NCBI GenBank assembly: GCA_902589185.1
Contig: CACIRZ010000001.1
Coordinates: 59,873 to 123,872 of the forward strand
DNA length: 64,000 nt
Source: an uncultured SAR116 cluster alpha proteobacterium
Lineage (GTDB): Bacteria; Pseudomonadota; Alphaproteobacteria; Puniceispirillales; Marisalimonadaceae
Reading direction: 5' to 3'
The notes under the pieces were generated by a model, which saw nothing but the letters and a program-made list of their open reading frames with translations, had not been told where the DNA came from and ran no database searches. Shown here piece after piece: positions 15,187-15,236 of this stretch (its first letter is position 1; each line of letters begins with the position of its first letter). The position numbers and the translations under genes are program-made.

Positions 15187-15215
15187 AAAATATGAAGTGA
15201 GCTTATTTATGTCAA
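15187..15215 (-). promoter_or_regulatory. Candidate katG promoter (-35 TTGACA, 17-nt spacer, -10 TATTTT)
   Basis: Minus strand reads TTGACA-TAAATAAGCTCACTTCA-TATTTT, upstream of katG ATG (15145) and its SD AAAGGA. Confidence 0.55.
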
Positions 15216-15219
15216 GTAG

Positions 15220-15236
15220 TTTAGAACGATTTTAAA
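15220..15236. promoter_or_regulatory. Irr ICE-like palindrome upstream of the katG -35 box
   Basis: TTTAGAA-CGA-TTTTAAA, one mismatch from the recalled alphaproteobacterial Irr motif TTTAGAA-N3-TTCTAAA. Confidence 0.5.

Follow-up and report, generated by a model that had tools for sequence, protein, structure and literature searches.

An ICE-like palindrome at the katG promoter of SAR116 bacteria as a predicted operator of the neighbouring Irr regulator

Introduction

SAR116 is an abundant surface-ocean lineage in which photochemical peroxide and iron shortage are met together. How such cells control a heme-dependent peroxide scavenger is the question raised by a 64-kb window, the whole stretch of 64,000 nucleotides that was analysed, whose host group is SAR116 (Puniceispirillales). 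In this window, a palindrome abuts the -35 box of katG, and the gene just upstream, irr, encodes a Fur-family regulator. A promoter tying KatG to heme and iron status would set when SAR116 cells can remove H2O2. The favoured reading, to which we assign a probability of about 0.68, is that the palindrome is the Irr operator (ICE) of the katG promoter, that the adjacent irr encodes the protein binding it, and that Irr represses katG. What was computed here is the site with its degree of conservation, the assignment of the neighbour to Irr, the conserved gene pair, and, across the class, an ICE/-35 promoter following irr. Regulator, operator, and enzyme are each of a known kind; neither an irr-rubrerythrin promoter nor a katG gene controlled directly by Irr was found described in the literature searched.

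Architecture of the katG promoter

The original prediction read, on the minus strand, a palindrome, 4 nt, TTGACA-N17-TATTTT, a Shine-Dalgarno sequence, and the katG start codon, and re-reading the sequence returned exactly this layout (Table 1). The palindrome, written TTTAAAATCGTTCTAAA in the minus-strand reading, had been described as one base off the Irr ICE motif, which the sequence bears out. An inverted repeat TTTAGAA-N3-TTCTAAA located in a promoter defines an ICE operator, and here it occurs with one mismatch, conserved within the order and matched by an ICE-TTGAC arrangement across the class. It extends further into an imperfect 23-mer, TAC-TTTAAAA-TCG-TTCTAAA-CTA. The core promoter of katG lies close to consensus and would be expected to work unaided.

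Table 1. Features of the irr-katG locus in window coordinates
Feature	Position	Strand	Basis
Fur-box-like inverted repeat TTGAGAATTACTATCAA upstream of irr	15664..15680	minus	in most of 27 genus loci, absent in L091
irr, Irr-type Fur-family regulator, 132 aa	15246..15644	minus	profile search, tree, ligand residues
Extended imperfect 10-3-10 palindrome TACTTTAAAATCGTTCTAAACTA	15217..15239	minus	flanks kept in genus; CTA/CTG also in other orders
ICE-like palindrome TTTAAAA-TCG-TTCTAAA, predicted Irr operator	15236..15220	minus	sequence; 27-locus conservation; class-wide counterpart
CTAC between palindrome and -35	15219..15216	minus	sequence
katG -35 hexamer TTGACA	15215..15210	minus	in 27/27 genus loci; TTGAC after ICE across class
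katG -10 hexamer TATTTT, spacer 17 nt from -35	15192..15187	minus	sequence
katG Shine-Dalgarno AAAGGA	15157..15152	minus	sequence, conserved
katG ATG	15145	minus	sequence
katG, catalase-peroxidase, 711 aa	13010..15145	minus	NCBIfam

The downstream product is a full-length KatG, scoring 1189 bits with NCBIfam PRK15061 and 1088.5 bits with TIGR00198, both over the cut-off. OxyR was considered as its regulator and set aside. The OxyR model returned only sub-threshold LysR matches, and all four of the best matches inspected lack the OxyR cysteine pair. Because the model cut-off was built on gamma-type OxyR, this falls short of proving absence.

The upstream regulator belongs to the Irr clade

The upstream gene had been called an Irr-like Fur protein with an HHH region, and this assignment holds. 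Its best NCBIfam match is IrrA, at 140.6 bits slightly below the model cut-off of 150, followed by 132.4 bits with FeRespRegIrr (cut-off 170) and 82.7 bits with PerRA. The PerRA and PerRB models score the regulator far lower than the Irr models, and the PerR models stay far below their cut-offs. Several other SAR116 members score better on the Irr model, for example, the one in G048 (E 4e-51). A tree was built from SAR116 and other alphaproteobacterial Irr, SAR116 Fur, FurA-type, and Gram-positive Fur/PerR-like proteins. It places the SAR116 regulator inside the Irr clade, together with the other alphaproteobacterial Irr (support 100/98), and the Fur group is separate from Irr in all bootstrap trees; the tool issued a warning of long branches between FurA-type and Irr rows. 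The tree and the profile models thus reject an identity as PerR or Fur. Relatives with 82-100% identity come from SAR116 or from alphaproteobacterial single-cell records.

At the residue level, the HHH cluster, which corresponds to the HxH/His-cluster heme-binding motif of Irr, occupies positions 86-88 of the window Irr and is common to all 23 SAR116 rows. A Cys-Pro heme regulatory motif was sought as well, and no CP dipeptide occurs in any SAR116 Irr row. That motif is of the B. japonicum type and not universal; it is not known to occur in R. leguminosarum. The SAR116 Irr rows also lack CxxC, for which reason regulation of katG by a FurA- or CatR-type protein was rejected for SAR116. The window Irr carries the PerR-type ligand set H32/D80/H86/H88/D99 (3His/2Asp, with Asp at the PerR D104 position). 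Asp is present at 80 and 99 in 49 of 49 Irr rows, and the SAR116 Fur paralogue has Glu at both. The best PDB sequence match is 5nl9, labelled in its file as a Fur-family regulator, which we take to be PerR-like.

Conservation of operator and gene order in SAR116

In 27 genus loci, the 31 bp running from the palindrome through the -35 show a mean pairwise identity of 97.5%, with 26 of 31 columns invariant. Fourfold-degenerate sites in the same loci reach 60% in irr and 66% in katG, with 8 of 194 invariant, and the remainder of the irr-katG gap reaches 64%. The palindrome alone stands at 95.9%; its changes fall mostly in the N3 spacer, and its TAC/CTA flanks are kept within the genus. Between -35 and -10, the spacer sequence is variable, while its length and the -10 itself are retained in most genus loci.

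The arrangement extends beyond the genus. In families f1, f2, and f4, the palindrome lies 4-5 bp before TTGA(C), and its changes stay symmetric, as in the TTTGAAA-TCA-TTTCAAA of G059. In family f3, it overlaps the -10 instead (ATTAGAAT-N-ATTCTAAT), and G042 has a second copy just downstream of the -10, so that the copies bracket the promoter. Twenty further members of the order, not part of the main locus set, were sampled, and in 19 of them katG comes directly after irr on one strand. The single exception, L073 (G037), is a complete genome of the SAR116 order in which katG is not beside irr.

Recurrence of the motif in the genome and genus

A genome scan had been proposed for the ICE motif, with hits expected at iron and heme genes. 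The outcome was divided. No enrichment appeared in raw counts; what did emerge were exact sites at heme and iron enzymes, recurring in place across many genus genomes. The katG palindrome is the sole site with at most one mismatch in the window. The own assembly (1.47 Mb, 62%-complete) contains five such sites, a density at which any particular 100-bp gap would hold one with a probability of ~3e-4; the other four lie within ORFs and were dismissed for that reason. At up to two mismatches, the own genome holds 76 sites versus 129 for a backwards control. Exact matches to TTTARAA-N3-TTCTAAA in 40 genomes of the genus number ~80 against 88 for the control, again with no excess, so that counting by itself would not have supported the module. 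The case for a predicted operator rests on position and conservation, not on count.

About 48 of the 80 exact genus matches fall at four recurrent places. One is beside irr/katG, in 26 of the 27 genomes in which irr was located. Thirteen genus genomes carry an exact ICE in the hemF-petA gap, ahead of the cytochrome bc1 operon petABC, where TTTAGAATCATTTTAAA lies ~60 nt upstream of petA (e.g., L107, L111, L112, L230, and L231). This site is absent from part of the genus and from other families, and PetA was not found in the own 62%-complete assembly. Upstream of ctaC (cytochrome c oxidase subunit II), an exact ICE is present in 6 genus genomes and near-matches occupy the same position in most (L248-L270). 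The own genome (L261, G000:C16) has the ICE-like TTTAGAATCATTTCAAA at -79 of ctaC, with 2 mismatches. In three genomes (L117, L229, and L245), an exact ICE immediately precedes the gene for a CO dehydrogenase flavoprotein. By position rather than by count, further sites therefore occur at iron and heme genes, namely petABC, ctaC, and CO dehydrogenase.

Other features were recorded at these places. A recurrent TTTAAAAAGGTTCTAAA match was set aside: at the one locus inspected, it belongs to the coding or start region of a glmM-like ORF. A TldD-like gene is divergent to ctaC at the ICE-like site, and the CO dehydrogenase ICE of L117 comes after a -10-like TACATTATAG.

An irr-rubrerythrin pair across Alphaproteobacteria

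Thirty irr loci of the class were picked by Irr score alone. In 27 of them, the gene directly downstream is not katG but encodes a soluble rubrerythrin of Pfam PF02915, with 67-92% identity to the query. Of these 27 gaps, 21 contain an ICE (≤4 mismatches) followed by TTGAC within 8 bp, for which shuffles give 0.01. The distance from ICE to TTGAC is usually exactly 3 bp, compared with 4-5 bp in SAR116 irr-katG, and the CTA/CTG flank of the palindrome recurs in other orders. A pattern search of 385 genomes of the class for an ICE followed by TTGAC at 2-7 bp gave 24 matches versus 2 in the control, and BLAST located irr directly upstream in 15 of the 24. Four matches precede sufB. In the small genomes of family f27 (L162-L165), the ICE abuts the sufB -35 with no irr adjacent, an arrangement that suggests Irr control of Fe-S assembly in that family.

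The SAR116 irr-katG regulatory module, proposed originally as a plausible local one, is supported by the Irr clade, the conservation of the putative operator, the gene order, and the class-wide ICE/-35 promoter. It goes beyond a local pairing: an older irr-[ICE/-35]-rubrerythrin module is present here in a form specific to the lineage. Rubrerythrin was found in 0 of 61 SAR116-order genomes, in a search run without an internal positive control but with a query that matches 27 other loci at 67-92% identity. Given this lack of rubrerythrin in SAR116, the simplest history would be that an inherited Irr promoter came to drive katG in its stead. Further irr-katG pairs occur in G374 (with ICE/-35), G269 (with the ICE between -35 and -10), G331, and G409, which means that the exchange, or the pairing, either arose repeatedly or is older. 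The comparison points to an old alphaproteobacterial unit made up of irr and a peroxide scavenger under a near-fixed ICE/-35 promoter. Since the enzyme behind this promoter has been exchanged, the inheritance of a promoter through gene replacement can be tested directly. On the other side of irr, a divergent fabA (and fabB) is found in many Alphaproteobacteria (L219-L221, L173, L186, and others), but the window's SAR116 genus does not have this arrangement.

Proposed mechanism and alternative explanations

In the proposed mechanism, heme-free Irr, abundant in iron or heme shortage, would sit against and over the -35 and block katG. When heme is plentiful, Irr would release the site or be degraded, and katG would be expressed. 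Peroxide oxidising a metal-binding histidine of Irr would probably also release katG. We infer Irr binding, repression as its sign, and heme and peroxide as its signals from several directions. Repression would be expected as iron sparing because the predicted targets are all iron or heme consumers. The positions over the -10 in f3, between -35 and -10 in G269, and around the promoter in G042 mean that several operators, if bound, must block the promoter. In R. sphaeroides, Irr binds the promoter of the heme peroxidase gene ccpA, whose start lies ~40 nt downstream of the Irr box, and ccpA is ~1.8-fold higher in an irr mutant under iron limitation (PMC3413700). Irr loses DNA binding or undergoes degradation on binding heme (PMC7762939). 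His63 of B. japonicum Irr, the equivalent of H32, is oxidised, as is the equivalent histidine of PerR (PMC4700492). Together with the near-consensus promoter, these lines point to repression relieved by heme and probably by peroxide.

The original prediction held that the placement would fit activation as well as repression. An Irr bound upstream of the -35 could recruit RNA polymerase, so that katG would rise when iron or heme is short; we regard this as unlikely, and repression as the better fit. An activator could use a site directly upstream of the -35, and the near-fixed spacing (3 bp in most irr-rubrerythrin promoters, 4-5 bp in SAR116) could mean contact with the polymerase. Irr often activates, and does so more frequently than Fur or DtxR, according to a review (PMC7762939). 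Moreover, suf and rubrerythrin of Ca. Pelagibacter ubique are up 1.6-2.4 fold under iron limitation (PMC2864753), and an ICE abuts the sufB -35 in family f27, a family not identified as SAR11. However, a consensus TTGACA with 17-bp spacing does not resemble an activator-dependent promoter, and in some relatives the operator lies over the -10 or within the promoter. The other targets consume iron and heme, and raising a heme enzyme during heme shortage makes no sense. Further points that weigh on the repression reading are the lack of enrichment by count, the restriction of the petABC site to part of the genus, and the lack of a Cys-Pro heme regulatory motif in SAR116 Irr.

A somewhat stronger competitor, though still doubtful, is direct peroxide sensing in the manner of PerR, by metal-catalysed oxidation at H32, with iron and heme secondary. 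It overlaps with the repression reading, since Irr sits at the operator in both. The full ligand set speaks for it, with Asp at 80/99 in every Irr row and Glu in the SAR116 Fur paralogue, as do the 5nl9 match, the missing cysteine pair in the top OxyR-model matches inspected, and the peroxide scavengers found beside irr across the class. Oxidation of His63 in B. japonicum Irr is also in its favour (PMC4700492). Yet the tree places the regulator inside Irr, the PerRA and PerRB models fall far below the Irr models, the Asp ligands are common to all Irr rows and hence unspecific, and petABC, ctaC, and CO dehydrogenase are not peroxide genes. Equally tentative is the idea that SAR116 Irr, lacking the Cys-Pro motif and retaining the PerR-type Asp site, senses heme and peroxide together and takes the role of OxyR/PerR. 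H2O2 would inactivate it directly at H32 and heme at the His cluster, and in this lineage katG would have been put in the place of rubrerythrin under an inherited Irr promoter. If true, katG would be gated by both need (peroxide) and means (heme).

That a different member of the Fur family binds the site in place of Irr, for example the Fur paralogue (C4:84306), is very improbable. Most genus genomes carry up to three members of the family, and katG is under Fur regulation in Magnetospirillum (PMC5459824); nevertheless, the 7-3-7 ICE layout accompanies irr across the class, and a separate Fur-box-like repeat is present upstream of irr. Hardly credible at all is a chance AT-rich sequence beside a strong promoter. 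The genome is AT-rich and loose motif matches are common without enrichment, but conservation far over that of synonymous sites and the class-wide ICE/-35 architecture already contradict it.

Relation to known regulatory systems

The closest parallels to the predicted SAR116 system are the Irr/ICE regulons of Rhizobiales and Rhodobacter (B. japonicum, R. leguminosarum, and R. sphaeroides), which share the clade and the 7-3-7 half-sites. Their targets likewise include iron and oxidative-stress genes (mbfA and ccpA). The R. sphaeroides catalase gene katE has no Irr box and is unbound (PMC3413700), whereas SAR116 katG lies directly behind irr with an ICE. Irr of the B. japonicum type carries the Cys-Pro motif that SAR116 Irr lacks. 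The irr-rubrerythrin pair has the same order, an ICE-then-TTGAC promoter, and a downstream peroxide-handling enzyme; it differs in its non-heme di-iron enzyme and usual 3-bp distance from ICE to -35, in contrast to the heme enzyme KatG and 4-5 bp in SAR116.

Mycobacterial furA-katG and similar CxxC-Fur-katG pairs also have a gene of the Fur family immediately ahead of katG and on its strand. Their regulators, however, carry CxxC zinc motifs and belong to a different clade from the SAR116 protein. In mycobacteria, the operator is upstream of furA, not between furA and katG. Among Alphaproteobacteria, L222 (G238) and L224 (G093) have a CxxC-type Fur gene overlapping the katG start, in the FurA-katG manner. 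PerR regulons (Bacillus, Campylobacter, and Leptospira) resemble SAR116 in the five-ligand metal site with Asp and in peroxide-scavenger targets; SAR116 differs in the Irr clade of its regulator, the lack of structural zinc cysteines, and an ICE in place of the 7-1-7 PerR box.

Sequences upstream of irr

The TTGAGAATTACTATCAA repeat ahead of irr resembles a Fur box, and Fur control of irr through it is possible. A fur mutant of Magnetospirillum shows raised irrA (PMC5459824). Because of this observation and the repeat, a Fur-to-Irr-to-katG cascade would be a reasonable extension of the repression reading. A strictly conserved GATCACATTTTATT ... CGTAAAG block is also present at ~15690-15780, between irr and a divergent amidase gene.
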